From: Alloyangia pacifica
GTDB taxonomy: Bacteria; Pseudomonadota; Alphaproteobacteria; Rhodobacterales; Rhodobacteraceae
Assembly (NCBI RefSeq): GCF_003111685.1
Contig: NZ_CP022190.1
Location: 1 to 64,000, forward strand
Direction of reading: 5' to 3'
DNA length: 64,000 bases
The notes beneath the pieces are model-generated. The model saw only the letters and a list, made by a program, of their open reading frames with translations. It was not told where the DNA came from and did not search any database. How positions within the stretch are numbered: position 1 is the stretch's first letter; each line of letters opens with the position of its first letter. Shown here in pieces: positions 6,506 through 28,264 of the stretch. The position numbers were made by a program, and so were the translations under genes.

Positions 6506-6740
6506 CGCTTTTCCAGACGATCCTCTTGCACGTTATCTTTGGAGGTCTGCTCAGGCTGCATATCAGAAGAAAGGCCGAAATCTGCGACGCCATGCGGCTC
6601 ATCCTCGCGACATCAAGGGAGAACACAAGGGAAACAAAAAGCAACAATTAGCGTTGCGAAATCCATATTGCCACCATATATTGATAAGTAGGATCGATTG
6701 AGGGAGGCAATCGGCAACCGGGTAGATAGAGGAGTTGTCC
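6506..6740 (+). promoter_or_regulatory. Leader region of the CBASS operon
   Basis: 235 bases without a gene, more AT-rich than the surroundings, especially 6620-6700 (for example AATTAGCGTTGCG and CATATATTGATAAG). The position and composition suggest it holds the promoter of the CD-NTase gene, but no confident -35/-10 pair or operator was picked. A ribosome site AGAGGAG (6728-6734) sits six bases before the ATG at 6741. Confidence 0.4.
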
Positions 6741-7985
6741 ATGCCCCTTGATCACACGTCCCCTGGGCTCGACGCCCTTCTGATTGCGACCGTTCTCCAG
6801 ATGGAGCTAAGCCCCCGCGACAACCGGGTGGCTGAGAAGCGCTACAAGCTGATCCCGTCACACATTGAGCGCGAAGGCAGTCCTTTGCGCCTCCATGTCG
6901 ATAATGCCTTGGTCTACGCACAGGGCTCCAGAGCGATTGGAACCACAATCGTTCACGGTGCAGATGAGGATCGTTTCGACCTGGACGCCATTCTTGAATT
7001 CGACACGCCGCTCGGCTGGTCACCGCGCCGGGTGTTGGACGAACTCTTCAAGGCCTTCCAAGGCTTCCCGGACGTGCAGGAGATCGAACGCTGCACGCGA
7101 TGCATTCAGCTTCGCTTCGCCTTCATGCATCTGGATGTGACGCCTATGGATCCTGCGCTGAAGCCGCGGCCAGAACGGGTCGGCGACATCTACCACAGCC
7201 CAGACGAAGGTCACGACGAACGCCACAAGGTGAACCCTTATGGATTTGCGGAATGGTTCAAAGGGCAAATTTCCCTTCCCAGCCAGATGTTCCAGGCTCA
7301 GGTTCGCAGCCTGCGCAACCAGCTTGAGATCAGGGACCGGCTTCGGCCCGGCATCATCGTCGCCGATGCAGATATCGACGAGTTGCCCGAGACTGTTGAC
7401 CCCATTCAAGATGCGCCGCAGGTGCTCGCCCTTAAGCTGATGAAACGCTACCTGAACCTCAGGTATGCCAACAGGAACGAGAAACGCCCCATCTCGGTCT
7501 ATCTGTCAAAAGTTGCCGCGCAGATCCCCCCGAACTCCTTTGGAGTCTGCGCCCAGCTTGAAGATCTTGCAGCTGAACTCGATCGTCGGATGAAATACGC
7601 TCTCGAGACCGGTCGTCGTCCGGAAGAGCGCAATCCGGCATTTCCCCAAGAAAATTTCAACGATCGCTGGCCTCAGAATACGCGCCAGATGGAAATGTTC
7701 CGCGGGGACCTGAGGCACCTCTTTGCCGAGCTTCAACGAGCCCGAGCCTCCGAGGTCGGGCAGATCCAAAAGATCTTCGATGGATTGTTCGGCGAACGTA
7801 TCAGCGGCAACGCCGTCAGGACATACATGGACAGCCTGTCCAATGCTCCGCAGAAAAGCGCGTATGAGCTCGGGAAGGGCTTCGTCGCAACTCCGGCACT
7901 CCTTACGCCGGGGGCCGCGCGCGCAGCCGCGACCTCCAAGGCACCTGCACACAACTTCCATGCGGGTGAGCTGCGGAAGAAATGA
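6741..7985 (+). CDS. CBASS CD-NTase (cGAS/DncV-like nucleotidyltransferase)
   Basis: Synthesises a cyclic oligonucleotide second messenger on phage infection. The protein has 414 residues from the ATG at 6741; a TTG two codons earlier is possible, but AGAGGAG is well placed for the ATG. The nucleotidyltransferase signature is complete: the G-S motif QGSRAIGT (Gly62-Ser63), then two metal-binding aspartates in RFDLDAILEFD (Asp80, Asp82), and a third acidic position in FMHLDVTPMD (Asp132). The rest is the helical SMODS-type half. It overlaps the next gene by ATGA. Gene order (CD-NTase, E2-like, HNH-SAVED) is that of a short type II CBASS operon. The nucleotide product cannot be told from sequence. 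Confidence 0.88.
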   Translation: MPLDHTSPGLDALLIATVLQMELSPRDNRVAEKRYKLIPSHIEREGSPLRLHVDNALVYAQGSRAIGTTIVHGADEDRFDLDAILEFDTPLGWSPRRVLDELFKAFQGFPDVQEIERCTRCIQLRFAFMHLDVTPMDPALKPRPERVGDIYHSPDEGHDERHKVNPYGFAEWFKGQISLPSQMFQAQVRSLRNQLEIRDRLRPGIIVADADIDELPETVDPIQDAPQVLALKLMKRYLNLRYANRNEKRPISVYLSKVAAQIPPNSFGVCAQLEDLAAELDRRMKYALETGRRPEERNPAFPQENFNDRWPQNTRQMEMFRGDLRHLFAELQRARASEVGQIQKIFDGLFGERISGNAVRTYMDSLSNAPQKSAYELGKGFVATPALLTPGAARAAATSKAPAHNFHAGELRKK

Positions 7986-8491
7986 AGCGGACCAAGCCCA
8001 GATCAGCAGAATCCCAGGTTCAGCGGATGGCACATAGATGGCCTTCCCTGAAGATGCGCGTGTATCGGCCGATGATAATCGATGCGACGCCATCGATCCA
8101 ATGGATAGGGCCGATCAGGGGCTTTCAGCGGGAGTATCGGATACTTGCTCAATGGAGTTGGCTGGAAGCAACTGCAGTCCCGTATGTCTTCTTGCTCGAA
8201 TCAGCTTTGAAGCCGCGGGACGGCGAGGACTATATCGACATCCCCCACCTGATCCTGGACGGCAAGACACCCGAAAACTCCGCGCTCTGCCTGTTCGACC
8301 CTGACGAGGGTCAATGGGACAACACCATGTGGATTTCGGACACGATCATTCCCTGGGCATCGGAGTGGCTCCACCATTACGAGTTCTGGCACGTCGATGG
8401 CCTCTGGCGGGGACCCAATGCACCCGGCCCGATCAACATACGTGAAATGCGTTGCCTTGCCGAAGGAGATCAAGATGGCCAGAGGAGCTAA
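7982..8491 (+). CDS. E2-like (ubiquitin-conjugating-fold) protein of short type II CBASS
   Basis: 169 residues, starting within an ATGA overlap with the CD-NTase and overlapping the effector gene by 17 bases, so translation is tightly coupled. The pattern matches prokaryotic E2-family proteins: HLILDG, then LCLFDPDEG with a likely catalytic cysteine (Cys103), then MWISDTIIPWASEWLHHYEF. In type II CBASS, Cap2 couples E1 and E2 activities to conjugate the CD-NTase C-terminus and raise its activity; 'short' systems carry only the E2 part. No E1 (adenylation) or JAB protease gene is present nearby. The E2 assignment rests on pattern and context. Confidence 0.72.
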   Translation: MKRTKPRSAESQVQRMAHRWPSLKMRVYRPMIIDATPSIQWIGPIRGFQREYRILAQWSWLEATAVPYVFLLESALKPRDGEDYIDIPHLILDGKTPENSALCLFDPDEGQWDNTMWISDTIIPWASEWLHHYEFWHVDGLWRGPNAPGPINIREMRCLAEGDQDGQRS

Positions 8492-9611
8492 GCCAGACAA
8501 CAAGACGCGGATGCTCGTCTGGGGTCGTGCTGCCGGCCACTGCCAATATCCGGGCTGTTCCAAACGCCTCGACGAAGACTTGGTGGCAGGCGACTTGCGT
8601 AAGAACAACGCCTATCTTGCCCACATCATCGCTTCCGACCCTGGCGGAGAGCGCGGCGACCCGATCCTGTCACATGAGCTCTCCAACGATCCTACCAACA
8701 TCATGTTGATGTGTGATCCGCACCACCGTGAGATCGATGACCCGAACAAGAAGGACCGATACAGCGTCAGCGTCTTGCGGCAGATGAAGGAACAGCACGA
8801 AGACAGGATCGCGCACCTGTTTTCCAATCCTTTGATCAAACCCGCCCATGTCCTGCGGGTCGCGGCTTCCATCGGAGAGAATGAAACCAGCATCCCCCTG
8901 TCTGACTGCATCGCGGCCATGGGGAATGAGTTCTACCTGGCAGACCGCCGCCCGATCGACATCCAGATGCGTGACATCGCGACCAAGGATAGTGACCCTG
9001 ATTACTATCCAACGGTGCTAAAACTCCTGCGTTCAAAGTATGACCGCGAAATCCGAGGAAGATTTGAGGAAGGCGAGCTCCAGCACCTGGCGATTTTCGG
9101 CTTTGCGCCGATGCCGGTTTTGATGGAGCTGGGGCGGCTTCTATCTGACCTGTCGGCTGTCTCCCTATACGGCAAGCACCGTGAACCAAAGCCAGGCTGG
9201 GCATGGCCAGACGATCAACTTCCCCTTGGCTTCTCAATGTTCAAGGGAAGAACGGGATCGAAAAAAGTCGCACTCAAGCTGTCGGTTTCGGCGGAAATCG
9301 TCGACGAGCGCGTGACAGCCGCATATGAGGACGACGACGTTTCCATTTGGGAAATTCGCAGTAATCCGCTCGGCACTTCAGCGCTGCGTAGCCAGAACGA
9401 TCTATCAGAGTTTCGCAAGGTCGTCGGCAAGACCTTTGACGCCATCAAAGATCAACACGGGCTGGATGTTGAGCTATCCGTTTTTCCGGCTGTGCCAACG
9501 GCCTGCGCAATCGAGTTTGGCCGGACGTGGCAGCCGAAGGCGCACCCAGGCTTTCGGATCTTCGATCAAGTGAAGGAGCGAGGCTTCATAGAACGGCACA
9601 TTATCAACTGA
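8475..9611 (+). CDS. Cap5-like CBASS effector: HNH endonuclease with SAVED domain
   Basis: 378 residues from the ATG at 8475 (AAGGAG ribosome site four bases upstream). The N-terminal HNH nuclease shows a CQYPGC pair, the first His in LAHIIASDPGG (His50), Asn in DPTNIMLMC (Asn75) and DPHHREIDD (His83/84). From about residue 150 the rest has the length and pattern of a SAVED sensor, which binds the cyclic nucleotide and drives oligomerisation, activating DNA degradation and abortive infection in known Cap5 proteins. It is the last gene of the three-gene operon. No truncation is seen. The HNH assignment is strong; SAVED rests on architecture and context. Confidence 0.82.
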   Translation: MARGAKPDNKTRMLVWGRAAGHCQYPGCSKRLDEDLVAGDLRKNNAYLAHIIASDPGGERGDPILSHELSNDPTNIMLMCDPHHREIDDPNKKDRYSVSVLRQMKEQHEDRIAHLFSNPLIKPAHVLRVAASIGENETSIPLSDCIAAMGNEFYLADRRPIDIQMRDIATKDSDPDYYPTVLKLLRSKYDREIRGRFEEGELQHLAIFGFAPMPVLMELGRLLSDLSAVSLYGKHREPKPGWAWPDDQLPLGFSMFKGRTGSKKVALKLSVSAEIVDERVTAAYEDDDVSIWEIRSNPLGTSALRSQNDLSEFRKVVGKTFDAIKDQHGLDVELSVFPAVPTACAIEFGRTWQPKAHPGFRIFDQVKERGFIERHIIN

Positions 9612-9662: not shown

Positions 9663-9815
9663 GCCTGGATCGTCGGAGGGATGACCGACATGCGGCACAG
9701 CATGAGCAGCTTGGCTTTGACAGTTCAGCAGGAACTCGGCCAAGATCTTCTGTTTCCGCGGCCGCGAGGGCGACTTGGTCGAATTCGTCTGGCAAGATGG
9801 TGTCGGCATGTCTGG
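9663..9815 (+). pseudogene. IS66-type TnpB (Orf2) remnant
   Basis: Two blocks of the IS66 Orf2 family can be read in different frames: WIVGGMTDMRHSMSSLALTV followed by QQELGQD, then after a shift FCFRGREGDLVEFVWQDG and VGMS. Intact family members have these blocks contiguous in about 115 residues, so this is a frameshifted fragment. No tnpA/tnpC partner or terminal repeats are visible. It lies just downstream of the CBASS operon. Confidence 0.6.
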
Positions 9816-9864
9816 CTCAGAAGCAGCGCACGGCGGTAGCAATCCGGCCCTTTACCCCAGAATC

Positions 9865-10203
9865 TTAACCATCCCCGAAATACCTTTCGGCCTCACCCAC
9901 CCCGAAGGTCTGCAGCACCGTACGGTCCATCTCCACACCCTCTGGCCGCACCAGGAAATGCGGGATGAAGGGCCCTCCATAATTCACCACAGGATGGCCC
10001 TGGTGGGTGTGAAGCTCCCCGTTCGCTTCTTGGGCTAGCATGATGAAGTCGACGAGATACTGGGCGCCATTGAACAAGGCACTTCGTTCCGCCGCAGGAA
10101 GGTCGACGATCTTTTTGAGGTCGATAACCTGATTCATCAGAGCAACGAACTCCTGCTCAGTGAAATTCACAGGGAGTCGTTTGGCGAAATCCTCAAGGTT
10201 CAT
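9865..10203 (-). CDS. Hypothetical protein, 112 residues
   Basis: I do not recognise the family. The ATG at 10203 (MNLEDFAKRLPVN) is chosen because AGAAGG lies seven bases upstream; a longer frame to 10302 is possible but its extra 33 residues look non-coding. The sequence is soluble-looking, with an acidic helical N-terminal half, then a Gly/His-rich stretch (HTHQGHPVVNYGG) and no signal peptide or membrane segment. It stands alone on the minus strand between CBASS and the AddB-like gene. Codon pattern and ribosome site favour a real gene. Confidence 0.5.
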   Translation of the reverse strand: MNLEDFAKRLPVNFTEQEFVALMNQVIDLKKIVDLPAAERSALFNGAQYLVDFIMLAQEANGELHTHQGHPVVNYGGPFIPHFLVRPEGVEMDRTVLQTFGVGEAERYFGDG

Positions 10204-10603
10204 GGTTGTGCCTTCTGCAATATGGAAAGTGACTGTGGGCTCCCTCAACGTCGGGAGCTGCCCCGTAAGGATGTAGGCTAACTTTTCTGCATGACGCAAC
10301 AAGAACCATCACTCGCAATGACCTTTATCCCATTGCATAAATTGCGAAAAATTTACTCGGTCTTTTTCGCATATGGGCTTCGGCATGACTTTAGAGTGAC
10401 CGGTCATAGGATAATTCATCCGACGTCGAATAGACGTCCGGCCCAACTCGCCTTGGATTGAAGAGACTAAAGGCATTCGAAGACGCGTACGCGAAGCTGA
10501 AGACGATGCTAGCCGGACAGCGGCACGTGACCTGCTCCCATAGGATCTGCCGCGGAAGATGTAACGCGCATTCGACACGCAAGAATTCTACGACCCCGGA
10601 GAG
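10204..10603. other. Non-coding stretch with a possible IS3 OrfA scrap
   Basis: About 400 bases without a supported gene. On the plus strand around 10455-10515 one frame reads GLKRLKAFEDAYAKLKTMLA, which resembles the leucine-zipper part of IS3-family OrfA proteins (typical pattern RLKALEDENAKLK), with stops on both sides. This suggests an old IS scrap directly upstream of the AddB-like gene. The A/T-rich part at about 10335-10365 could carry a promoter, but no clear elements were found. Confidence 0.4.
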
Positions 10604-13144
10604 GTGAAAGATGCTGCAGAACGCAATCCGAGGAATTGCCTTTTCTCCTTTCCCTCCAATATCGTCTCGCTACTGTCCTTTCCGAAGGACCTTGTCGTTA
10701 CCATTGGAAATACGCCCTTGCCCCTTGACCCCATTTCAACCGTTCACCCCGTGACTGGGGCAGTCCGTTTCGTGAGCCCGGAACTGTTGGCCGAAACCTA
10801 CCTCTGCCCGCCTCCTGCGGCCTTCGAAGACACCGCTGCCATCAGGGAGGCGAAGAGCGCTCCTTGGTCGTCGAGCTTTGCGGTCGCCCCCGATGCCACG
10901 ATCGCCGCCGTATCGAGAGCCCTGAGCGATCTGATCCATGCCGCGCCCGCGCTGGACCCCACGTCCGTGGACGTGGATCGCCTGCCCGAGGGGCGTGCGC
11001 GCACCCATCTGACATCGCTACGTGATCTGTGGCGAGACATAGGACGTCTCCCCGAAGATCTGGTACCGCTTGCGCACGCGCAATCCTGCAGGGCCGAAGA
11101 TGCCCTCGCCCCATTGCAGCTTCTATCAAGCGGCAGTCGGATCGGGGCTAGAGCCAGCGAGGTTGCTCTTGCAGAAATGCTCGAGCGCCATCATGGCTTG
11201 ACGGTGAATGTGAGGGCGTTCCCAGGTCTGATCCCTGCTGGGGCCGGTCTTCTTTCGACGTTTCAATCTGGTGGCATGGCGCCAGGCGCGCCCATCTCCG
11301 TCACTGCCCTGCGCGACCCTCTTGAGGAATTGCGCCACGCCGCCGCGCGAGCGCAACGCATGCTGGACGATGGCACAGTCCATAGCGCCGAGGAGATCGG
11401 TCTTCTTTTGCCCGACGATCCCGCATGGCTGGTCGACGCGGAGGCTGTCTTTGCCAATCTGGGTCTTCACCTCGGAGGTCTGCCGGGCGCACCCGCTCGG
11501 GATCGAGCGACCGAAGCACTGCATCTCATCCTGACGGTATTGAACAAGCCTGCGCCCGGCATGGCTGCCGTTGCTCTTGATGCACTGGGTCTCGGGACCT
11601 CCGACGGTGAGCTGCGCGGGCTTCTGCGCCGACATCCTGACACGGGTGGCGAACTTGCGAAAACCCTTCGCGCAATCGCCTCGCACGTTCCGGGGGAGAT
11701 CGCCACGGCTCTGCGGGCCATGCCCTGCGGCCCGGAGGAAGCCCCCGTCGACTGGGCTGGTCTCATTGCGGCAACCCGTCCCGGCACCGTGCCCGAAGCG
11801 CCGGTAGCGGCCACGCGCGGCGCGATTGCGGTTTTCACCGAAGGACAGAACCCATGGCGCGAAGTCCGCCATCTCCTGGCGCTCGGCTTCGCGGGGGACC
11901 GCTTCCCGAGCGTGTCAGGTTCCGGTCCGTTCTGGCTGGAGCACGAGATTGACCTGATCGAAAACTGCTGCGGCATCGCCCTGCCTGGCCGCCGTGCATC
12001 GCTCGAACTTGCCCGCGCGCGGCTGGATCGGCAGTTCGCCGCAGTCTCGGAAGGTATCGAGATCACATGCCCCGTCCGTGATCGCGCCGGGGCCCGGCTG
12101 GCGCCTGCTGCCGCGCTCGACTTGATCGCGCACAGGCTTGGGAAAAAAGCCGAAGACCTGATCCGCCCCCTATCAGAGGAGCCGGCCGACTGGCCCTTTG
12201 ACACCCACGTTCCGCTCCCGGCAGCGCCGCGGACATTCCCGGCCGATCGCACGCTCGACCTCAACCGCGACCTCACCGGCTTGCGCCTCAAGGAAGACGG
12301 CACGGTGCGCCCCCAATCGCCCTCGCGCCTCGACACGCTGCTCGTGTCTCCTCTCGCCTGGCTCCTTGGCGAACTGGGGATCGAGGACAAGGGGTGGGGG
12401 CCGGATGCCCTCGATGCGATGGTACGCGGATCGCTCTTGCACAAGGTGCTGGAAGCACTCTTCCCGCCTGGTCCACCGCCTGATCCCGGCAGCATGGCGG
12501 AGGCTGTACCCGTCGCCATCGACGCCGCTATCGAGGATGATCGCGACTTGCGGTTCCTCGCGGCTCCAGCCTGGACTGTCGAACGCCGTCACGTCGCCAG
12601 CGACCTCACACGCATTGCCATCCGATGGGCCGAGATGTTGCAAGAAACCGGCGCAACCATCCACGCGACCGAGGAGTACCTTTCCGGTGAGGCCTTTGGC
12701 ATGGGGCTCCACGGCAAAGCCGACACCCTGCTCAAATTGCCGAACGGGACCATCCTGGTGATCGATTACAAGAGCGGCAAGTCCCCCAAACGCGTGAAGC
12801 GCATGGAGAATGGCTGGGACGTTCAGGCCGAGCTCTACGGGGGCATGATCCGGGGCAGCGCACTCGCGGAGGGGAAGAATGCTGTCGCCGTGGGGTACCT
12901 CAGCCTTGCAGACATGGTGGCCGTAACCAGCGGCACACTGGCCGGAGACCCCTTCGGCCCTTTGGACGCCGATACACATGGTGCGGCGAAAGAGAAGCTT
13001 ACTGAAACCGTCGCAGCACTGCGGCAGGGACGGGTCACGCTGAACGGATCCCCCGATGCCAAGTTCTTCGACGACCTCGGGGTTGGTGCCTATGCCCTCG
13101 ACAACACAATCGTGAGCGCATTCCTTTGGGAGGACGACCAATGA
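10604..13144 (+). CDS. AddB-like PD-(D/E)XK nuclease subunit
   Basis: 846 residues if started at GTG 10604. The C-terminal third holds a PDDEXK_1 nuclease signature: HGKADTLLKLPNG, VIDYKSGKSPKR (Asp721, Lys723) and DVQAELYGG, as in AddB/RecB-type nucleases. The middle part resembles the inactivated helicase region of AddB (AEEIGLLLPDD, LGFAGDRFPSVSGSGPFW). No Walker A motif is seen at the N-terminus, and the four-cysteine iron-sulfur staple of canonical AddB is not evident. It overlaps the AddA-like gene as ATGA, so the two probably form a complex. It is shorter than housekeeping alphaproteobacterial AddB (about 1,000 residues), and an IS scrap lies just upstream, so the start is uncertain. 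Likely role: a variant helicase-nuclease in DNA defence. Confidence 0.75.
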   Translation: MKDAAERNPRNCLFSFPSNIVSLLSFPKDLVVTIGNTPLPLDPISTVHPVTGAVRFVSPELLAETYLCPPPAAFEDTAAIREAKSAPWSSSFAVAPDATIAAVSRALSDLIHAAPALDPTSVDVDRLPEGRARTHLTSLRDLWRDIGRLPEDLVPLAHAQSCRAEDALAPLQLLSSGSRIGARASEVALAEMLERHHGLTVNVRAFPGLIPAGAGLLSTFQSGGMAPGAPISVTALRDPLEELRHAAARAQRMLDDGTVHSAEEIGLLLPDDPAWLVDAEAVFANLGLHLGGLPGAPARDRATEALHLILTVLNKPAPGMAAVALDALGLGTSDGELRGLLRRHPDTGGELAKTLRAIASHVPGEIATALRAMPCGPEEAPVDWAGLIAATRPGTVPEAPVAATRGAIAVFTEGQNPWREVRHLLALGFAGDRFPSVSGSGPFWLEHEIDLIENCCGIALPGRRASLELARARLDRQFAAVSEGIEITCPVRDRAGARLAPAAALDLIAHRLGKKAEDLIRPLSEEPADWPFDTHVPLPAAPRTFPADRTLDLNRDLTGLRLKEDGTVRPQSPSRLDTLLVSPLAWLLGELGIEDKGWGPDALDAMVRGSLLHKVLEALFPPGPPPDPGSMAEAVPVAIDAAIEDDRDLRFLAAPAWTVERRHVASDLTRIAIRWAEMLQETGATIHATEEYLSGEAFGMGLHGKADTLLKLPNGTILVIDYKSGKSPKRVKRMENGWDVQAELYGGMIRGSALAEGKNAVAVGYLSLADMVAVTSGTLAGDPFGPLDADTHGAAKEKLTETVAALRQGRVTLNGSPDAKFFDDLGVGAYALDNTIVSAFLWEDDQ

Positions 13145-16100
13145 CATTCCAGATCGTTGGGGCAGGCGCCGGTGCGGGCAAGACCTGGCATATCCAAGAG
13201 ACGCTTAAGGAATGGGTTACCGAAGATGCAATCAGACCCGAACGCATCCTCGCCGTGACCTTTACCGAGACGGCCGCCTCTGAACTCAAGGGCCGCATCC
13301 GCGGGGCCTTGCTGGCGGAAAGTAGACTGGAGGAGGCTGCTGCGATTGAGCGGGCCTATGTTTCCACCATCCACTCCCTCGGAAACCGGATTCTGACCGA
13401 GCATGCCTTCGCCGCAGGCCTCTCCCCCTCGTTGCGGCTGATCGAGGACGCGGAGGCCGAACTGCTCCTGCGAAGGGCAATGGCCGATGCCGAAACACTC
13501 AGGGTCTTCACCGATGATCTCGCGGCACATGGCTACGCCTGGAGCTACACAGGCGGCGACGCCACGGACACATTCCGCCGTGACCTTCGTGCAGCCATCG
13601 CCAAGCTGAACGAGCTTGGGGAATTCGGCGACGATCCGAAACTGCCTGCGCGTGCGGCCGAAGCCTTGAAGACCGACTGGCCGAAGACGGACGCGAGCGG
13701 CGACAAGCTGGATGCAGGCCTGCGTCGCTCCATCGAAGCCATGCTGAAGGCCTTCCCAGACGGAATTGTCGATTGGGCAAAGAGCGCCGCCGCGACAAAC
13801 GACTTCACATCGAACTATCGTGACCTTCAGCGCGGACTTTCGGACCATACGTACACCGACTGGGCCTGGTGGCAGCGTCTCACGAGCCTTCGGGTGAAGA
13901 ACAACCGCCAGCCAACCCCGGAGGGCTACGACGATCTCGCCGAAGCTGTTATGCAAGCCGCAGGGGCATTGGCCCGCCATCCCGGCCCGAAGAATGAAGC
14001 GGCCCAACGCCTGCAGTTGCTGCTTGCGGGCGCGCAAGAAGTGCGACGCCTTTTCGCACAGGCCAAAGAGCGGCTCGGTGTGGTGGATTTCGGCGACATG
14101 ATCGCCCGGGCAGAGGCCCTTCTGCGTGCCCGTCCCGAAGCTGTCGCGGCCATGATGGACGGGATCGACTGCGTGATCGTGGACGAATTCCAGGACACCA
14201 ACCCCGTTCAGTTCGCCCTTTTGGCTCATCTCATCAAGGCCGCCCCCCGCGTCGTCCTGGTCGGGGACGGCAAACAGGCCATCATGGGGTTCCAGGGGGC
14301 TGACGCGCGCCTCGCGGCGGCCCTTGCTGCCCAGCGCCCCAATGCTGCGCATACGTTGGACACCAACCGGCGGTCTGTCCCCGGGATCATGAACCTCGTG
14401 AACGATCTCGGCGCAGGGCTCTTTTCGGATTACGCGCCTCTGGCACCGCATCGGAGTGCCGCTGGCGGTCCACCGATCGACGTCATGCGTGTCGAGAACA
14501 AGACCGCGACCAGCAAGGGAGCACCCCTAGCCAAGGGCTCGCATCACATCGCCGAGCGCATTCGAAGCCTGTTGGAAGAGAAACGTACGATTATCGACCG
14601 GACGACGAATACGCCCCGTCCCATGCAGCCTTCGGATGTCGCCATCCTGTGCCGCACGCATTCCAAGGCGCGGGACTATGCAGACTGCCTTACGCAGCTG
14701 GGCATTCCCGTGGACCTCGCCGAAGACGGCTGGTTCACCTCAGAAGTTGTCACCGTCGCCCGCGCGGCCCTTGCCGTAATCGCCGATCCGTCTGATGCGT
14801 TCTCCGCCGTCATCTTCTTGACACATGGCCCGGCGGCAGTATCGCTGGAGGCCGCTCTAACTGCTGTGCTGGATGGCAACCTCGCCGCGCATCCAGCGTT
14901 GGCTTCTCTCGAAGCGTTGCAGGACCACGCATCCAGCTGGACGGCAACAAGGCTGCTCGCAGGGCTGCGAACCGACGCCGGCCTTGATGATTGGGCCGCC
15001 GGGCTGGAGGATCCCGCCCGCGCCCACGCCGACCTTGCCCGCCTTGATGCAGAGGCCGCAGCCTTCGAGGCCGCAGACCCCGTCACCCGTGCGGCCTCGG
15101 GTGTCTTCGGTTGGGATATTCGATCCTTTCTCGCATGGCTCGCGATCCGCGCGGATGCGGGCGACAATGCACGTCCTGATCCGAGCGGTTCGACAGCGCG
15201 CGGCGTGAAGATCGCGACCTGGCACGCGTCAAAGGGGCTTGAATGGCCCGTGGTCTGTGTGACTGGCCTCGACTGGACCGTCGGAGAGCGCGCCAATACC
15301 CTTCGCATCGAATTCACCGGCTGGGACGTCCCGGAAACTTTGCTCGAGGGGGCCACGATTCACTATCATCCGGTCGTCGCTTGCCGGGAGGTGGCCGAAC
15401 ATTTCGCAGCTGTCCGCCGCGAGCCCGCCGCGGTAACAGAGCGCTGCCTGTCCTATGTTGCCATGACACGCGCACGGGATCTGCTGGTTCTGGAATGGCC
15501 AGACTACGTGAAGGAAGACGCGGACACGGTTTCACGACTGCTGGTCGAAGAAGGGAAGCTCGAACTCGGAACCGGAGAAATCACTGTCGGAAAGTCGAAG
15601 CATCCTGCGCGTCTGACCAACCATGGCAAGGCCTTCCCCGGGTCCTTCGCTGACAAAGGCATCGAAACAGCAACCGAAGCTGAAGTCCGACCCGGTCGCC
15701 CGGAAACTCCAGGTCCGCGCGGCGCGCCTCTCTTCCTGCGTCCATCCGACGGCGGTGAGGCGACAGCGCTATGGTCTCTCGAGACCCATGCCCTTGGTGC
15801 CGCTCTCCCGCGCGAGGCGTTCGACGATGCAAGCCTGCGCGGAAGCGCGCTTCACCTTGCCATGCGAGTCTTTCTACAGCGCCCTGACCGGGCAATTGAT
15901 CTGAGCGCAGCAACCGGCCTCTCGCCAGAGACCCTCGCAGCTCTCAAGGAACAGGCGAGAAGCCTGCGTCAGACATTGGCAGAGCATGGCTTCACCGACT
16001 TGCACCCTGAGCTTCCATTCGACACAGAGATTGCAGGCGGCACCCGGGTCCGCGGCACGGTCGATCTCCTCGGCCTGAGCCAAGATGGGCGAGAAGCAGT

Positions 16101-16281
16101 GATCATCGACTACAAGTCGCCTGCACCGGAATCCCCTGTCGAAGCTGCCCAGCCGTACCTTGCCCAACTCGGAGCATATGTCGGCGCACTTTCGACGCTC
16201 CGCCCTGAAACCCGGCTGGCGCGTGCGGGCATCCACTTTCTAGGGTCGGGCACGCTTGCATGGGGCTCGCCCAGCATGTGA
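13141..16281 (+). CDS. AddA/UvrD-like helicase-nuclease (SF1 helicase with C-terminal PD-(D/E)XK domain)
   Basis: 1,046 residues from the ATG overlapping the upstream stop. SF1A helicase motifs are complete: Walker A GAGAGAGKT (residues 7-15), motif II VDEFQDTNP (Asp348-Glu349), motif III LVGDGKQAIMGFQGAD, a TWHASKGLEWPVV motif and motif VI SYVAMTRARDLLVLE. The C-terminus carries a second nuclease, RVRGTVDLLG then VIIDYKSPAP (residues 987-996). This is the AddA layout: motor plus nuclease. With the preceding AddB-like gene it would form a two-nuclease, one-motor enzyme acting on DNA ends. Its place in an island, with an HNH gene downstream, argues against it being the housekeeping recombination AddAB. 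Confidence 0.85.
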   Translation: MTFQIVGAGAGAGKTWHIQETLKEWVTEDAIRPERILAVTFTETAASELKGRIRGALLAESRLEEAAAIERAYVSTIHSLGNRILTEHAFAAGLSPSLRLIEDAEAELLLRRAMADAETLRVFTDDLAAHGYAWSYTGGDATDTFRRDLRAAIAKLNELGEFGDDPKLPARAAEALKTDWPKTDASGDKLDAGLRRSIEAMLKAFPDGIVDWAKSAAATNDFTSNYRDLQRGLSDHTYTDWAWWQRLTSLRVKNNRQPTPEGYDDLAEAVMQAAGALARHPGPKNEAAQRLQLLLAGAQEVRRLFAQAKERLGVVDFGDMIARAEALLRARPEAVAAMMDGIDCVIVDEFQDTNPVQFALLAHLIKAAPRVVLVGDGKQAIMGFQGADARLAAALAAQRPNAAHTLDTNRRSVPGIMNLVNDLGAGLFSDYAPLAPHRSAAGGPPIDVMRVENKTATSKGAPLAKGSHHIAERIRSLLEEKRTIIDRTTNTPRPMQPSDVAILCRTHSKARDYADCLTQLGIPVDLAEDGWFTSEVVTVARAALAVIADPSDAFSAVIFLTHGPAAVSLEAALTAVLDGNLAAHPALASLEALQDHASSWTATRLLAGLRTDAGLDDWAAGLEDPARAHADLARLDAEAAAFEAADPVTRAASGVFGWDIRSFLAWLAIRADAGDNARPDPSGSTARGVKIATWHASKGLEWPVVCVTGLDWTVGERANTLRIEFTGWDVPETLLEGATIHYHPVVACREVAEHFAAVRREPAAVTERCLSYVAMTRARDLLVLEWPDYVKEDADTVSRLLVEEGKLELGTGEITVGKSKHPARLTNHGKAFPGSFADKGIETATEAEVRPGRPETPGPRGAPLFLRPSDGGEATALWSLETHALGAALPREAFDDASLRGSALHLAMRVFLQRPDRAIDLSAATGLSPETLAALKEQARSLRQTLAEHGFTDLHPELPFDTEIAGGTRVRGTVDLLGLSQDGREAVIIDYKSPAPESPVEAAQPYLAQLGAYVGALSTLRPETRLARAGIHFLGSGTLAWGSPSM

Positions 16282-16340
16282 CACCCTGCGCAAAGCCAGT
16301 TGGCGCTGGCCCTCACCTCCTACACCCTGAAAGCCGCCGA

Positions 16341-17822
16341 ATGACTCTTGCCCCCACCGAGGCAGAACGCCTCCTCCGTTCCCGCTACGGTGATCCCGCA
16401 AAGGCACCGACCGACTACATCATCGGTTTCCGAAACCCAGTCGGGCGCGTCCTTGCCATCCACCGCACGAACCAAACCACTCGTGTCTGGTTTCAACCAC
16501 CCGCGCCACCTCATCTGGACGGCGTTGCGCTTCTGACCGAACGAAACAACGGCAACTCGAACATCAACGGGCCCCTTTCGCCCTTGAAGCGGCCTGACAC
16601 GCAGCGCGTGGAAATCGACAGCCTGACAGCCCTTCAGCACTTCCTCGACTGGTACGACGGCGCGCCGGCCAAAGCACCCAAAGCGCCTGATCTGCTGGAG
16701 GGCTTGGATTTCACCAGCGCCTTCGCCCGCTTCCAGTCGCTGATTACCGCCTTCGACGCCCCTTTTACGCGGTTTGACGAAGGACTTATCGCCGCCTGGG
16801 AAAGCTACAAGCCCCGCCTCCGTGCCGAGGCCTTGATCCGCCTCGGCGCTGAAACTTGGCCGGAAGATCGGATTGGCTCCGGCGCCATCGTCGCCAAGGT
16901 CATCGACGCCATCGAAATCCAGGCGACACATGGCGACCTGAAGAATAACTTGGTGTTCTGGCGGAACCAATATGGCCACGCCAACCGCGACCACCGCGCC
17001 CTGATCGAAGCGGCGACAACAGGCACCGGCCTGCAAACCCTCGAACGCCTGTTGTTCCAGCTCTATCGAACCGACCGGGACGAAGGCGCGTTGTTCGACG
17101 AATTGAGCAAGGCGACCGGCGCGAAATACCCGCTGATGGCCTACCTGTTCTTCCTCAAGGACATGGATCGCTTCATGCCGATCCAACCCACCGGCTTCGA
17201 CCGTGTCTTCAGCGAGATCGGCCTGGAATTCCGCACTCTGCGCAATTGCACCTGGGAGAACTACAGCCAGTTCAACGGGACCTTGAATGCCCTGCGCAAG
17301 CCAATCGCGGAACAGGCAAGACTGGACCACGTCCGCCTAATCGACGCCCATTCCCTGCTGTGGCTGTTCTCGACCCTATTGCGTAAAGAAGCCAAAGGCG
17401 AACTGGCAAAAGGTGAAAAGGCCGACGCGCGCTACCTCGGTGCCCGGGAGAAATCGATTGCCGACATCAAGTATTCGGTGGGCAAGACGGTCTTCAACTC
17501 CAACGGCCAGGTGGTCCCGTCGACCGTCAAGAACAAGGAGCTGCACATGTCCGACGCGGAGTTGGACAAGCTGATCCGGGACCTGCTCACCATCCAGGAA
17601 GACCGCTGCGCCATCACCGGCCTGCCGTTACAGTTCCGGGGCGTACAGACGGACGACAACATGCTGCCCTCCTTGGACCGCATCGACAGCAATGGGCACT
17701 ACGCTAAGGAGAACCTGCAGTTGGTCTGCCGCTTCATCAACTTCTGGAAGCAGGCGTCTGATGACGGTGAGTTCCGCAGATTGGTTGGCGTCGTTCGCGG
17801 CGATGACATGGCGGGTGGATAG
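16341..17822 (+). CDS. HNH-type endonuclease-like protein, third gene of the AddAB-like operon
   Basis: 493 residues from the ATG at 16341, 59 bases after the AddA-like stop. The C-terminus has an HNH-like pattern: CAITGLPLQF (Cys423), then LPSLDRIDSNGHYAKENLQL with Asp446, Asp449, His453 and Asn458, and VCRFINFWK (Cys463). This is the 'SxDRID...Y...N' version of HNH/His-Me folds. The N-terminal 400 residues show no domain I can name; they include a QTTRVWFQPP segment and a mainly helical middle part. Same strand and spacing suggest co-transcription with the helicase-nuclease pair. Possible roles are an effector nuclease or a modified-DNA recogniser; neither is proven. Confidence 0.68.
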   Translation: MTLAPTEAERLLRSRYGDPAKAPTDYIIGFRNPVGRVLAIHRTNQTTRVWFQPPAPPHLDGVALLTERNNGNSNINGPLSPLKRPDTQRVEIDSLTALQHFLDWYDGAPAKAPKAPDLLEGLDFTSAFARFQSLITAFDAPFTRFDEGLIAAWESYKPRLRAEALIRLGAETWPEDRIGSGAIVAKVIDAIEIQATHGDLKNNLVFWRNQYGHANRDHRALIEAATTGTGLQTLERLLFQLYRTDRDEGALFDELSKATGAKYPLMAYLFFLKDMDRFMPIQPTGFDRVFSEIGLEFRTLRNCTWENYSQFNGTLNALRKPIAEQARLDHVRLIDAHSLLWLFSTLLRKEAKGELAKGEKADARYLGAREKSIADIKYSVGKTVFNSNGQVVPSTVKNKELHMSDAELDKLIRDLLTIQEDRCAITGLPLQFRGVQTDDNMLPSLDRIDSNGHYAKENLQLVCRFINFWKQASDDGEFRRLVGVVRGDDMAGG

Positions 17823-17988
17823 CAGGCGCCGAAACTGCGAAACGACAAGCACAGATACCAGATCGGCCCTGACCGGCCATTGACCGGGCCCACCTCTGCT
17901 GCGATGCAGCGCGTCATTCCGGACTTTCGCTGCGACCGCAAGATGGTGGACGTGACGCCGAAGGAGTGACAAGCTCATCCCGGACATT

Positions 17989-20277: not shown

Positions 20278-20559
20278 GGCTGCTTCTCCTTTGGCGCGGA
20301 TTATCCTGCTCCAGGATAACCCGACGGTGGGGGAAGCAGCCGGCACATCCCATTAGCTGCCATTCGCCTGCCATTCGACGAGTGACCGTTTTCGTCTAAT
20401 TGCTTGATCTCAAATAGAAGAGCTGTTGAGTGAAGTTCATTCACAAGTTGAATGCCAGAGACGGCAAGAGTAGCCTCTAAAGCACCAATTACGTCGGCAT
20501 CTGGGGATTTAGCATTGAGTACTACCCTTTCTGAAGCACTCCTTCCACTATCTAAACGG

Positions 20560-22125
20560 ATGCCCCGCGCGGTGCGCGACATCGAAATCCTCCGGGTCTC
20601 GGCGCAGCTTGAGGGGGAGGACTACGCGGCCTCTGCCGAGGCTGCGCGGAAAGAAGCGCTGAAATGGGCAAAAAAGCGGGCCGGGCGCGCGCTCCCCAAG
20701 GCCGCATGGGACTTGCAGGACTTTGACCTGCCAGTGGGTGGACGCAGCAGCACGGCGGTGCGGATCGAGAACGACGCGCTCGACCTCTGGGCGCTGCGGA
20801 CGGAAGACCCGGACAAGAACGTTGCTGGACGCGTCTGGTCCACAGAGATCGTCATTGGTGGCGAAGTCGGCGGTCGCCCATATGTCAGCCTTCGCTTGAT
20901 TGTCAGCACGACCGAGCCGGATTTCACGATTGAACCCCACGTGCCGGGGCCGGTCTTGCAGATGATCGAGGCACCGGGACTGGTCCGGGGAGCTCGGCAA
21001 CTCTTTGCAGAGCCGGTGACGATACAAACGGAAAATGACGCCGAAGACCTTTGCGATCATCTGGAAGACGGGGAGCGCCGGCTGCCGATCTTTGTCGTTG
21101 CCATGCCAGAGATCGGCGACCAATCCCATATGGACACCGCGGTGTTGGCCAAAGCTGTCGCTGGCCTTGCCCGGATCGTATTGGTTCCTGCCGAATTGAC
21201 TTGGGTTCTGACCAAGCGCTTCGGAAAGCATCGCTCCGTGTTCAATGGTGGGGTGCGCGCTTATATGAGGGGGTTTTCCGCAACTGACGACCCATTCCGC
21301 CATCGCCTGTTTTTGGAAGCCGACTTGAGAAAAACCGATGGCGGTTCCGCCTGTGTTCGCAGTCTGCGTGCATTGGCCGCCGAGGTCAGCATCTCGGAAA
21401 CGCGTCTCGGCAAAGATGTGCTTGACTTTGCGGCGGTTCGTAGCGCGAGCAGAAAGCTTCGCAAGACCGATCTTTCTAACCAAGCAGCACCGGACGAGGA
21501 ACTTCTGAAGACTGCGGAAGAGTTGGTCGAGAGTCTGGAAAAACAGGTCGAGGAGAAAGACAAAGAGATCGATGGCTATATCGCGGAGGTTCAGGCCGCA
21601 GAGGATCGCGCGCAGGCCGCCGAGCAAGAAAACCGCTCTTTGTTGTTCCGAGTCAGGCAGTTGCAGGCTGCGCTGGCCGAGGGTGTTGAGACCCCAACAG
21701 AAGAGCCACCGCTGCCGCAGAAATGGTCAGAGTTCACCGATTGGCTCGACCAAACCTATCCCGACAAGGTGTTGCTGACCCCGGCGGCCCGAAGGATGGC
21801 CCGTTCCCCCGAGTTTGAAGACGTGACGCAAGTCGCTCGCGCAATCGCATGGCTGGCGACCGTTCAACATGAGCGGCGCATCAATGGCGGGGGAAGCCTG
21901 AGGGACGTGCCGATAGAGAACGGTATCCTGAATTCACCATGTGGCGGGGATACCTATTCGGCAGACTGGAAGGGAAGGCGCTACGACGTTGATTGGCATG
22001 TGAAAAATGGCGGCAACGTGCGTGATCCCAAAAGATGCCTGCGGATTTACTACTTCTGGGTGGATGAGACCCACCAAACCGTCATTGACCATCTTCCCGC
22101 ACATCGCCGGACAAGTGCAACGTAA
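20560..22125 (+). CDS. Uncharacterised coiled-coil protein paired with an HTH-AlbA_2 gene
   Basis: 521 residues if started at ATG 20560; the frame is open back to 20452, and the true 5' end may have been disturbed by the nearby IS110. I do not recognise the family by name. The N-terminal 250 residues are mixed alpha/beta (DIEILRVSAQLEGEDY, DLWALRTEDPDKNVAGRVW, LRLIVSTTEPDF). Residues about 314-374 form a long charged coiled coil (ESLEKQVEEKDKEID onward). The C-terminal 130 residues begin WSEFTDWLDQTYPDKV and end in a compact domain (CLRIYYFWVDE) that looks like a binding module. It ends 15 bases before the HTH-AlbA_2 gene on the same strand, so both were probably one operon. Confidence 0.6.
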   Translation: MPRAVRDIEILRVSAQLEGEDYAASAEAARKEALKWAKKRAGRALPKAAWDLQDFDLPVGGRSSTAVRIENDALDLWALRTEDPDKNVAGRVWSTEIVIGGEVGGRPYVSLRLIVSTTEPDFTIEPHVPGPVLQMIEAPGLVRGARQLFAEPVTIQTENDAEDLCDHLEDGERRLPIFVVAMPEIGDQSHMDTAVLAKAVAGLARIVLVPAELTWVLTKRFGKHRSVFNGGVRAYMRGFSATDDPFRHRLFLEADLRKTDGGSACVRSLRALAAEVSISETRLGKDVLDFAAVRSASRKLRKTDLSNQAAPDEELLKTAEELVESLEKQVEEKDKEIDGYIAEVQAAEDRAQAAEQENRSLLFRVRQLQAALAEGVETPTEEPPLPQKWSEFTDWLDQTYPDKVLLTPAARRMARSPEFEDVTQVARAIAWLATVQHERRINGGGSLRDVPIENGILNSPCGGDTYSADWKGRRYDVDWHVKNGGNVRDPKRCLRIYYFWVDETHQTVIDHLPAHRRTSAT

Positions 22126-22329: not shown

Positions 22330-23685
22330 CAGGCCGCTGAAAAAGTCTGCCGTGAGGAAGTGTTTCCCTTGAGCAGGAGCTCGATGCAGCCTGGTTTGCG
22401 AACCGGCAGTCCGAGTAGCCGCTTGCCGGCTCAGTTGGCGAGCAGTTTCGGCAGCCTCGGGAGGTTGCAGGCTGCCATCGCCAAGGTGAAGCGGGCCCGC
22501 ACGCGCTCGATCCCGCGGTACAGGGTCTGCGCCATGCCGCCGACGGTTTTGACCCAGCCGAAAGGTTCCTCGATCTTCTTCCGGCGCCGCTGCGATTGGG
22601 CGTAGCCGGGGTGCCGGGTGGTTCTGCCGTCGATGGCGGAGTGTCGGGACTTCTGGGCGACGTGCGGCGTAACCACCATCTGGCGCAGCTCGGCGACGAA
22701 GTCGGCGCTGTCGTAACCGCGGTCTGCCGCCAGGGTCAGGCGCCGGGTCGAACCGGGCGAGTGGCGGTGAAGCATGTCGATGGCAGCACGCCGCTCGGCG
22801 TGGCCGTCCGCCCGCGTCAGGTCGGCCTGCACGATCAGGCCGGAGCGGTTCTCCATCAGGCTATGCCCCATGAAGCACAGCATGGCGCCGGCGCCGAGGG
22901 ACTTCTTGAACAGCCGGGCCTCCGGATCGGTCATCGAAGCATGGGTCGCGTTCGAGCGTCGTTCGCCACGGAAGTCGACTTCGGCGTTGCGGTTGCGGCG
23001 TGTGGGGCGGGTCATTGGATCGGGCTCGGCGGTGGTCTGGTCAGAGGAGGATGTGGGCGGCCCGCTGGTATCGGGCGGATCGCCGGGACCCTCGTCCCCG
23101 CCCAACGTCGCCCTTTCCTTCGGCTGGAAGCTCTTCATAGACGCCCATGCCTTCACCAGGGTGCCATCGACCGAGAAATGATCGTCCGAGAGCAGCGGTG
23201 CCACCTCGCGATGCGCCAGAATGGCGGCCATGATCTTGCGCGACATGTCCGTGGTCAGCACCCGGTCGCGGTTCTTCGTGAACACGGTCGGGACCCAGAC
23301 GCCATCGTCGACGCCAAGACCCACGAACCAGCGGAACAGCAGGTTGTAATCCATCTGCTCCATGAGTTGCCGCTCGGAGCGGATCGAGTAGAGGATCTGC
23401 AGCAGGCTGGCCCGGATCAACCGTTCCGGCGCGATGGAGGGGCGGCCCTCACCCGCGTAGAGCCGCTCGAACTCGGCATTCAGCGAGCGCAGCGCACCGT
23501 TGACGACGGTCCTGATCTTGCGAAGCGGGTGGCGCGTCGCAATGCGCTCCTCGAGATCGACGTAGCTGAACAGCGAGCCCGTCACCTGATCTGATCCACG
23601 CATCCCACACTCCGTCGCCATCGTAGTGGCGACGGTGAATCATGTTCCGCGACAGGCGTCGAGGGAGGAGTTTTTCAGCAGCCTG
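22330..23685 (-). mobile_element. IS5-family insertion sequence, 1,356 bp, with TTAG target duplication
   Basis: Terminal inverted repeats: the left end reads CAGGCCGCTGAAAAAGTC and the right end, on the minus strand, CAGGCTGCTGAAAAACTC (16 of 18 identical). The element is flanked by direct TTAG copies at 22326-22329 and 23686-23689. A 4-bp YTAR duplication is typical of IS5-family insertion. The ends, duplication and single intact transposase gene indicate a recent simple insertion. Confidence 0.9.
22431..23621 (-). CDS. IS5-family transposase
   Basis: 396 residues. The N-terminal DUF772-type part (LFSYVDLEERIATRHPLRKI, RPSIAPERLIRASLLQILYS) is followed by a DDE_Tnp_1 core: LLSDDHFSVDGTLVKAWAS (first Asp), TLAADRGYDSADFV (second Asp) and RRRKKIEEPFGWVKTVGG (Glu). 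The ATG at 23621 lies 64 bases inside the element's right end. It is transcribed against the gene it interrupts. No stops or shifts, so probably functional. Confidence 0.92.
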   Translation of the reverse strand: MATECGMRGSDQVTGSLFSYVDLEERIATRHPLRKIRTVVNGALRSLNAEFERLYAGEGRPSIAPERLIRASLLQILYSIRSERQLMEQMDYNLLFRWFVGLGVDDGVWVPTVFTKNRDRVLTTDMSRKIMAAILAHREVAPLLSDDHFSVDGTLVKAWASMKSFQPKERATLGGDEGPGDPPDTSGPPTSSSDQTTAEPDPMTRPTRRNRNAEVDFRGERRSNATHASMTDPEARLFKKSLGAGAMLCFMGHSLMENRSGLIVQADLTRADGHAERRAAIDMLHRHSPGSTRRLTLAADRGYDSADFVAELRQMVVTPHVAQKSRHSAIDGRTTRHPGYAQSQRRRKKIEEPFGWVKTVGGMAQTLYRGIERVRARFTLAMAACNLPRLPKLLAN

Positions 23686-25206
23686 TTAGATGCCTACCTA
23701 GCTACCTTCGCACCCGCCGAAGTGGGCGTTGTGATTGAAGGTAGGGAACAACGCGAGCCGACGATGGCCGAGAGAGCGCAAGCGAGGTTCGTCCAGCGCG
23801 ACGATGGCAACTGGTATCTTGCGGATGGCGAGACGTCCGAACAGGAATGCAAGGTCCAGTTCGATCCGCGTCGGATGGAGCCTATTATCCGTGCTATTGC
23901 AGCCTTGGCGAACAACCGAGGCGGCTTCGTCTTTATCGGCGTCGGCGACCCCGAATGTCGCGTTGTGGGAATGTCCGATACGGCATTCCAAGATGCCGAC
24001 ATCGTGAGGATCACGGACAAGGCCAAGACGCTTCTGACACCGACACCCTCCTTTTCGAAGGATGTGATTTCGATCGGAGGCCAGGCCGTGGGCGTGCTCT
24101 TAGTTGAAAAGTACCCCACACCGCCGGTGGTCGTCTGTCGCGATGCGAATGGGCTTGAAGACGGGGCGATCCTATTCCGCTATCCGGGTCAGTCTGGAAA
24201 GATCAAATTCGGTGATCTTCTGACCATGCTGCGCGAACGCGACCGAGCGGCGACGCACAGCTTGCTGGCCAGCGCGTCGCGCCTAAGCGAAATCGGAGCG
24301 GATCGGGCGTTGATCGTAGACACTGAAAAGGGAGAGATGGACGCAGGATCAAAGCGTATCGTTATTGACCGTGCCTTGGCCGATCAACTTGATTTCATTC
24401 GTGAAGGAGAGTTTGGGGAACGCGCTGGCGCTCGTGCTCTGAGGTTGGTCGGTGATGTTCATGCCGTGGACCCTGAGGGGCAAGTCGTCGAGCGCGTTGA
24501 GGGGCGGGCGCTGGACGCTGACGCCGTGCTGAAGGCCTACCTGAGCCACGATGCAGTCCGCGCCCCACTCGAATATGTCTGCATATCAGCCAAAGTTCAG
24601 CGGTAATGGCTGCCGCTTCTCCACTTCGTCAAGCTAGCGGGCGGGAACATCGACGGAGCAATCGAGGCGCTTGATGCCACGAATGCTGTCTACCGGGTCT
24701 CGAAAGCAAATGCCCTAGAACGCCTTCGAGGGCAGAGATCCGCGTTCGAACGGCCCGGTGGTGCGATCCTTGACGTGGTCGCGGACTTGCAGGCTGGTCG
24801 CATTGACGACTTGCGTCAAAGGTTCAACGACTTTCAGGTCGTTCGCGGTATTCGCGGTCTGCCAGATGGTTTCGAACCGACCGACCCAATTTTCGACCTT
24901 CTTCGCGACATCTATGAGGAGGTGGGCAACAACGCTAATGTCCGGAGCGGTATTTTTAGCGCAGCCGCTCGACTTGATGAACTGGAAAGCGAAATTCAGT
25001 CCGGGCAATCATAGCCACCAGATCATGTTGCCTGAGTATCAGCTGCTGTATTGAGGGCACCTTGCGGTCGTACAGGAAGCTTTTTGCGCTTCGCCGACCT
25101 TCGGGCTGAGTGCAGCGAACGGCCGCTCCCCGCCGATTCCGTGGAAAAACACCTGTTCGCGACCGCAGCAATTCCCCGCCTGAGGCGGCCGTGAATGCCT
25201 TTCCTG

Positions 25207-26634: not shown

Positions 26635-26850
26635 CGCCGACCCTCCCGCCCATTGGCAGAATTGAATCAGCACCACGCCCCTCGATCAAGCGCGAGTTTT
26701 TCAACGAAATACGCCCTTCGTGTGGGCGCCTAGCGTAAAGTTGCGCCTGGCACGAATGCCGCTTGGGCTGCCCCCCCCCGCCAGCTGCGGCCATCAGCCC
26801 AAGCGACTACTTTGGTCTTGGCCGACCTAAGGCGCGCTCGCCTCGACCAC

Positions 26851-27948: not shown

Positions 27949-28264
27949 GGCGGTCCTTTCTGGCGCGTTGCGCCATGCCCTCAGGCAGAGCTTCTGCTGG
28001 AGGGGGATGTTGGAAAGAACCCGGCCGGATTTGCCCTGAGGGATGCCGAAAGCGCGGCTGGCCGTCAACGGCGCCCACCAGGACTGAGCGCTCCGACGGC
28101 GCATTAAAGGCCGCAAATCCGCCAGATGCGCAAGCCATTGATATAAAAAGAAACCACCGGCCGCGGCGCAGCCGATGGTCATTAATCCTGTGCCGGAATG
28201 GACAAATTACCCCGGAAATGGACAAGATTTAGTGGGTCCTACATGACTCTGACCCCTCAGCTCC
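27949..28264. other. Intergenic region between the AAA+ gene and nrdJ, probable island border
   Basis: 316 bases without a supported gene. It includes an A/T-rich patch at about 28138-28152 (ATTGATATAAAAAG) that could be part of a promoter for the leftward AAA+ gene, and a pair of near-identical short repeats at 28193-28225 described separately. Confidence 0.45.
28193..28225 (+). repeat. Two direct copies of CCGGAA(A)TGGACAA
   Basis: CCGGAATGGACAA (28193-28205) and CCGGAAATGGACAA (28212-28225). Spaced direct repeats containing TGGACAA occur at the ends of some IS21-type elements, so this may be a leftover IS end marking the right limit of the island. The link to IS21 is from memory of the family pattern, not a search. 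Confidence 0.4.

Follow-up and report, generated by a model that had tools for sequence, protein, structure and literature searches.

An AddAB-like pair with a partner-swapping HNH-type protein in Alloyangia pacifica suggests a mix-and-match defence kit

Why should a second pair of genes resembling the recombination enzyme AddAB stand in front of a gene for an HNH-type protein? We examined this question at the start of contig NZ_CP022190.1 of Alloyangia pacifica (Rhodobacteraceae; assembly GCF_003111685.1), where positions 1–64,000, here called the window, hold three co-directional genes at 10604–17822. The AddB-like and AddA-like genes are joined by an ATGA overlap, and the third gene, encoding a 493-residue protein with an HNH-like C-terminus, starts 59 bases past the AddA-like gene. 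A preliminary description of this DNA had placed the three genes in just this way and had read them as one candidate defence system without a name. Their features are as follows.

10604–13144, plus strand: AddB-like protein, 846 amino acids, with a PD-(D/E)XK nuclease in the C-terminal third
12317–13048, plus strand: PDDEXK_1 domain of the AddB-like protein, residues 572–815 (Pfam PF12705, 71.4 bits)
13141–16281, plus strand: AddA-like helicase-nuclease, 1046 amino acids, with UvrD and PDDEXK_1 domains (Pfam)
15808–16206, plus strand: PDDEXK_1 domain of the AddA-like protein, residues 890–1022 (Pfam PF12705, 43.1 bits)
16341–17822, plus strand: portable HNH-type protein, 493 amino acids (sequence alignment and structural model)
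16341–16691, plus strand: N-terminal swappable head of the HNH protein, residues 1–117, modelled as alpha/beta with mostly high pLDDT (predicted local distance difference test)
16692–17435, plus strand: stretch of the HNH protein between the head and the HNH-like domain
17436–17822, plus strand: C-terminal HNH-like domain of the HNH protein, residues 366–493

The AddB-like protein may start about 26 codons further downstream, at the position of the first start codon in the related locus L021 (loci found in the searches below carry L numbers). We found that the three-gene set is one combination of two modules, each of which has other partners. Because the HNH protein was found beside several different DNA-destroying defence systems, the data suggest a mix-and-match defence kit, and we give roughly even odds (a probability of about 0.5) to the reading that the locus is a defence cassette built from two portable modules, in which the HNH protein would recognise or open foreign DNA and the AddAB-like motor would degrade it.

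Alignment and structural model divide the HNH protein into three parts: an N-terminal head that can be swapped, a helical middle domain and an HNH domain at the C-terminus. No Pfam, NCBIfam or PADLOC family matched it, PDB sequence profiles returned nothing, and Foldseek, run with the whole model and with the middle domain, gave no hit that reached E 0.001. The middle domain, of about 250 amino acids and without a Pfam match, was predicted to adopt a helical, glycosylase-like fold; a profile comparison with three glycosylases of the same genome was negative. In some relatives the head is swapped for an EVE-like head (14 of the 121 sequences compared) or absent (5 of 121). The head found in the window matched no Pfam family, and 25 relatives yielded one weak EVE match (E 0.15). 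When the IMG/VR collection of viral contigs was searched with the HNH protein, 29 loci were obtained and every match was confined to residues 333–492. The C-terminal HNH domain is also fused, in several alphaproteobacteria (L065–L069, L073, L080, L083–L085 and others), to an N-terminal region resembling the NucS-domain protein of a type I restriction–modification operon (L010).

The fold of the C-terminal domain matched PacI, EcoKMcrA and other HNH nucleases, and its residues Asp446, Asn458, Cys463 and Asn467 did not vary among the 121 sequences, a pattern that a functional metal site would be expected to show. An Arg follows the Asp of the HNH motif, and this residue, set against the canonical HNH motif, would fit a catalytically dead domain, in which case the protein would bind DNA as a sensor or adaptor and so load or license motor nucleases. 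Such a single adaptor for type I, Zorya-like and AddAB-like motors would account for the partner swapping described below; the four invariant residues and the match to active enzymes argue against it, and we regard it as unlikely.

We then asked beside which genes the HNH protein occurs. In a scan with one genome per species, from which the best 80 of 166 matching stretches were analysed, 46 of the 80 loci encoded at least part of the middle domain. Type I restriction–modification (R-M) genes lay 5′ of the HNH gene in 17 of these 46, and in 10 of the 17 the stop codon of HsdS and the start codon of the HNH gene overlapped by 4 nucleotides; stop/start overlaps of this kind at the HNH gene suggest coupled expression. 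This count includes L022, which was assigned on a 138-amino-acid piece of HsdS only, and excludes loci with HsdR fragments alone (L027 and L049) and one with a distant helicase match (L061). An AddA-like gene was directly 5′ of the HNH gene in four of the 46 loci (L020, L021, L037 and L050). It was preceded by an AddB-like gene in L021, L050 and L037, and the AddB-like gene of L020 was found in rearranged pieces. Since L020, a short contig of a metagenome genome, is a near-copy of the window (92–96% identical in rearranged pieces), it was not taken as an independent case. In L064 (Shimia marina) Zorya-like ABCD genes were followed by an HNH protein with the same type of head as in the window, the Zorya-like assignment resting on ZorD and ZorA family matches below cut-off together with an OmpA-domain gene. 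A type III R-M pair lay 5′ of the HNH gene in L048, with one further gene between, and helicase-nuclease genes lay near it in L039. No motor was seen in the remaining middle-domain loci, several of which were ended by the contig edge; 5′ sequence amounted to about 2.1 kb or less in L030, L043, L045, L058, L061 and L062, L058, L061 and L063 were partial, and L032 and L057 were absent from the automatic gene list. The expectation that HNH homologues would accompany AddAB-like pairs in other genomes was thus borne out by L021, L050 and L037, with the near-copy L020 in addition. As for the proposed three-gene defence system, the unit with an AddAB-like partner does recur (4 of 46), and what did not survive is the idea of a fixed system, type I R-M being the commoner partner (17 of 46).

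Further searches extended these counts. At E 1e-20 the order sample of 390 genomes contained 16 with a match to the HNH protein, mostly through its C-terminal part only, and at E 1e-50 the family sample of 394 genomes contained 9; neither sample includes every species. Three of the eight other family matches were examined: L231 had type I R-M genes, and no motor was seen in L232 or L182. L181, from the order sample, also had type I R-M genes; it resembles the same contig as L026 and was hence not added. Outside the 46 loci, type I R-M genes were found on a plasmid as well (L010). Plasmid matches to the HNH protein came from 24 records, of which 10 regions were examined, and three of these had an AddAB-like pair: on the near-identical Mesorhizobium plasmids L013 and L015, and on L019, distant AddAB-like pairs adjoin HNH proteins that share only the C-terminal domain, the HNH protein of L019 being encoded 5′ of the pair.

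The association was tightest for proteins with the window type of head. A motor system was directly 5′ or next but one in 15 of the 16 such loci, 11 of them with type I R-M, three with AddAB-like and one with Zorya-like genes; the lone locus without a motor, L030, was read within its 2 kb of 5′ sequence. Decayed copies with the window type of head on the Acetobacter plasmids L011 and L012 had no motor beside them. We also built a tree of 46 rows, which leaves out L058, L061 and L063 and adds L010, L182 and the window. The AddAB label required three changes on this tree, whether gains or losses, at least two of which were forced by well-supported branches; a number this low arose in 2 of 500 shuffles. 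It follows that the HNH protein has switched partners on more than one occasion. The clade of the window grouped with type I-associated rows at 100/96 support.

The same results bear on a rival view of the HNH protein, as a modification-dependent (type IV-like) nuclease that works alone, settles beside any system and is functionally unlinked to the AddAB-like pair. Such a nuclease would cover phages whose modified DNA escapes the neighbouring system. The partner changes on the tree are consistent with it, as are L030 and the decayed plasmid copies, whose window-type heads adjoin no motor, and the loci without an identified motor gene 5′, examples being L046, L053, L055, L059, L060 and L077. 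The EVE-like and headless relatives point the same way, the EVE-HNH enzyme VcaM4I acting alone according to PMC7897488. Against it, a motor system lies 5′ in 15 of the 16 window-type-head loci of the genome scan, often with the stop/start overlap noted above, and a gene that hitchhiked at random should have turned up next to a wider range of genes. We consider the stand-alone nuclease possible yet doubtful. A bolder version of the modular reading, which we put forward with similar reserve, would make the HNH protein a universal plug-in, a recogniser or initiator whose heads can be exchanged. Defence machines that translocate DNA but are unrelated to each other (type I R-M, type III R-M, Zorya-like and AddAB-like) would each have recruited it independently, and here it would turn an AddAB machine of the repair type into a dedicated destroyer of foreign DNA.

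To return to the AddAB-like pair, we found a full housekeeping addAB elsewhere in the same genome, as the preliminary description had required of a dedicated defence pair. The housekeeping AddA, on contig C1, scored 1211 bits, above its family cut-off, and the AddB directly before it scored 921 bits with both stretches. The window pair reached 158.5 of the 860.75 bits and 30.7 of the 486.5 bits set as cut-offs for the alphaproteobacterial AddA and AddB families, respectively. Given this separate, full-scoring addAB, the window pair is therefore extra. In the AddB-like protein His613, Asp707, Asp721 and Lys723 were invariant across eight aligned proteins; in the AddA-like protein so were, again across eight, Lys14-Thr15 of the Walker A motif (AGAGAGKT in the window), the DEFQDT box and the nuclease residues His905, Asp975, Asp990 and Lys992. 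Because these motor and nuclease motifs are invariant in the eight aligned proteins each, both subunits look active as judged from their sequences. The AddB-like protein had been thought distinctive for lacking a Walker A motif and cysteines, a claim that we abandoned when the housekeeping AddB of the same genome proved to lack both as well: the same pattern detected no Walker A in it, and its C-terminal half is free of cysteine. The nuclease part of the eight aligned AddB-like proteins contained 0 to 3 cysteines. A simple DxK pattern matched the AddB-like motif of the window and nothing in the housekeeping AddB. In Pfam the AddB-like protein has the PDDEXK_1 domain only, and it had no PADLOC match at E 0.001. 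The 25 listed of the 49 PADLOC matches of the AddA-like protein fell on UvrD stretches; the models were those of GajB and, in one case, of the DRT helicase RTasHel.

The partners of the pair differ as well. An AddB-like match was obtained in 19 of 390 genomes of the order, the window's own included. L143 was a fragment only, and the third gene could not be read in L126 and L135, where AddA is broken or absent, nor in L136 and L139, where the contig ends within about 1 kb; of the 13 loci from other genomes that could be read, none had the HNH gene after AddA. We rejected the three genes as a fixed system on this result and on the partner counts of the HNH protein. Instead, AddA was followed by ZacABC of the Azaca system in L127 (PADLOC E 1e-118 and better), L129 and L142 (ZacA matches), and by a diverged Zac-like set in L133 (ZacB match, E 1.3e-8); L130 and L134 were called Zac-like by sequence starts that look like those of the Pfam-scanned L133. 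GmrSD followed in L132, PDDEXK_4 proteins in L131 and L141, and metallophosphoesterase-like genes in L138 and L140, the call over L138–L140 being made by look-alike sequence starts to the Pfam-scanned L141. An AAA-domain gene came after AddA in L137, with a short open reading frame (ORF) between, and a transposase-like ORF in L128. Three of the seven strong ZacA loci of the order had an AddAB-like pair, and none was present in the fetched 5′ flank of the other four. A class-level search for AddB-like genes returned the window's own genome only (1 of 385).

On plasmids, AddB-like relatives were found in 10 of 72,556 records, 7 of the 10 being typed as conjugative. Seven of the records were examined at the locus. 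L215 and L219 combine the pair with a hypothetical-hypothetical-helicase trio of Zac-like layout, and in L216 a trio of this layout stands with the pair directly after bacteriophage exclusion (BREX) genes; these three trios were judged by their layout. L214, L217, L218 and L220 carry the pair without such a trio. Regulators with WYL domains precede or flank the pair on L215, L217, L219 and L220, and WYL domains were also found 5′ of the AddB-like genes of L037, L050, L126, L127 and L133; a BLAST comparison of the L127 WYL protein with the window's first 30 kb detected no homologue. Together these loci point to an AddAB-Azaca supercassette, with the Zac set directly after the pair and often a WYL regulator 5′. 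On the 5′ side of two AddAB-Azaca loci, L127 and L142, there are ORFs that by look are SMC-like and SbcD-like, and such ORFs also stand beside a distant HNH relative in L182.

AddAB enzymes are established as processors of DNA breaks, and the pair might serve mobile elements in recombination or repair and be in this island by chance, with the HNH gene incidental. The AddB-like relatives on plasmids, most of them conjugative, speak for this reading. What speaks against it is the company that the pair keeps, namely ZacABC, BREX, GmrSD, WYL regulators and, in the window, a cyclic oligonucleotide-based anti-phage signalling system (CBASS). A pattern search of IMG/VR viral contigs, sensitive to close relatives alone, found no AddB-like relative, and the block shared with a second genome (see below) consists of the three genes and a 145-amino-acid ORF, none of them recombinase-like by Pfam scan and ORF reading. 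We therefore hold a mobile-element repair role to be quite improbable.

Under the modular reading favoured here, the first module would comprise the AddA-like protein, as a UvrD-type motor and nuclease, and the AddB-like protein as second nuclease, which together would unwind and shred DNA from a free end, an activity proposed by analogy with the AddAB/RecBCD family. The head and middle domain of the HNH protein would read some feature of the incoming molecule, perhaps a base that is modified or flipped; the HNH domain would nick or break the recognised DNA, and the AddAB-like motor would enter at the break and degrade the molecule. Elsewhere the same HNH protein would open or recognise DNA for type I R-M, type III R-M or Zorya-like systems. 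Defence, the activity of the HNH domain, the recognised feature, a physical or functional coupling of the two modules and the mobility of the cassette are points that we infer.

The locus was further compared with known systems. It shares with housekeeping AddAB (TIGR02784, TIGR02786) the two subunits, the UvrD-type motor and nuclease in AddA and the second PD-(D/E)XK nuclease in AddB, but the window pair is far under the cut-offs, is an extra copy and is tied to an HNH protein or to defence genes. A related AddAB-like pair stands directly before ZacABC of Azaca in the three loci named above, whereas the genome of the window has no ZacA at E 0.001; a BLAST comparison of the window's first 30 kb with the L127 and L133 proteins revealed neither ZacB nor ZacC, for which no whole-genome search was made. 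The reader-HNH enzymes VcaM4I (EVE-HNH; PMC7897488) and TagI (SRA-HNH; PMC12707154) resemble the window protein, with its swappable head and putative HNH nuclease domain, in joining an exchangeable N-terminal head to a C-terminal HNH-type nuclease, and VcaM4I is reported to act as a stand-alone enzyme that flips 5-methylcytosine or 5-hydroxymethylcytosine and then cleaves. In contrast to these enzymes, the window protein adds the 250-amino-acid middle domain, has a head outside the Pfam families and belongs to a group that is often encoded last in a motor-driven system.

An HNH nuclease within a larger system is also found in Zorya II, whose ZorE is described as an HNH nickase in a preprint (PMC13192584); its synergy with Druantia III is reported to depend on DruE and RecBCD, which promote the formation of DNA structures open to cleavage by ZorE. 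VcaM4I and ZorE serve as precedents for the mechanism proposed above. The HNH protein differs in having no PADLOC match, and neither ZorA nor ZorB was among the PADLOC matches listed for eight window proteins (for the AddA-like protein, 25 of 49 matches). Gabija (GajA and GajB) resembles the locus in placing a UvrD-type helicase beside a nuclease; here, however, GajB was matched through UvrD stretches, the adjacent AddB-like and HNH proteins had no PADLOC match (E 0.001), so that no GajA (OLD-TOPRIM) partner was detected beside the helicase. In some type I R-M operons (L010, L024, L031 and others) the fourth gene encodes the same HNH protein, and no HsdR, HsdM or HsdS homologue was found in the first 30 kb of the window with the L010 subunits as queries. 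HNH nucleases have already been reported as auxiliary effectors encoded with BREX cores (PMC12839542); in the portion of that article accessible to us these are GmrSD-type, stand-alone, fused to winged helix-turn-helix or SRA domains, or OLD-linked, with no such three-domain family and no AddAB-like partner.

The kinds of parts, an AddAB-like motor and a reader-HNH protein, are thus known. The AddAB-HNH combination, the HNH protein as partner-swapping last gene and the AddAB-Azaca link are unnamed in the PADLOC, Pfam and NCBIfam libraries and were not found in searches of the open-licence PMC literature; in agreement with the preliminary description, the unit has no name among the models of PADLOC-DB 2023 and NCBIfam. 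No AddAB-HNH unit appeared in the accessible portions of PMC12839542, PMC7641849, PMC13192584, PMC10952713, PMC13092281, PMC12458937, PMC13373217, PMC12707154 and PMC7897488. If the modular reading is true, phage defence has made interchangeable components out of repair machines of the AddAB type, and several DNA-motor defence systems that are otherwise unrelated share a single uncharacterised HNH protein. Whether such systems recognise or open DNA through one shared subunit then becomes a testable question. Many type I R-M operons would moreover gain an extra component that we did not find described in searches of the open-licence PMC literature, and a middle domain that proved to be a base reader of glycosylase fold would be a new way of sensing foreign DNA.

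Finally, we examined the surroundings of the cassette by comparison with L021, from Oceanicella sp. SM1341.

9756–17881, no strand: block common to the window and L021 (blastn)
9865–10302, minus strand: 145-amino-acid ORF within the shared block, without a Pfam match
6735–9611: CBASS directly 5′ of the cassette, with a SMODS-type cyclase (PADLOC 691 bits), an E2-like protein and a SAVED-HNH effector

The shared block showed 93.6% DNA identity over 8127 bp (blastn), and the neighbouring CBASS lies outside it. The CBASS was ruled out as part of the unit on this ground. A second block common to both (window 26714–30554, L021 from 13081) had 84% identity; the gap between the two blocks is 1.5 kb in L021 and 8.8 kb in the window. 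The two loci may thus be in related genome regions, and because the second block allows this, the mobility of the cassette is something that we infer. No inverted repeats were found around the cassette, the repeats there being two short two-copy families. The roughly 7 kb that the window has in addition between the shared blocks contain a gene of the PADLOC candidate family HEC-07 and transposase-like ORFs. The HEC-07 match, a 557-amino-acid protein at 20452–22125 (617 bits), is a further predicted defence gene, and a 326-amino-acid protein with a Schlafen/AlbA_2 domain, encoded at 23626–24606, adjoins transposase-like ORFs.

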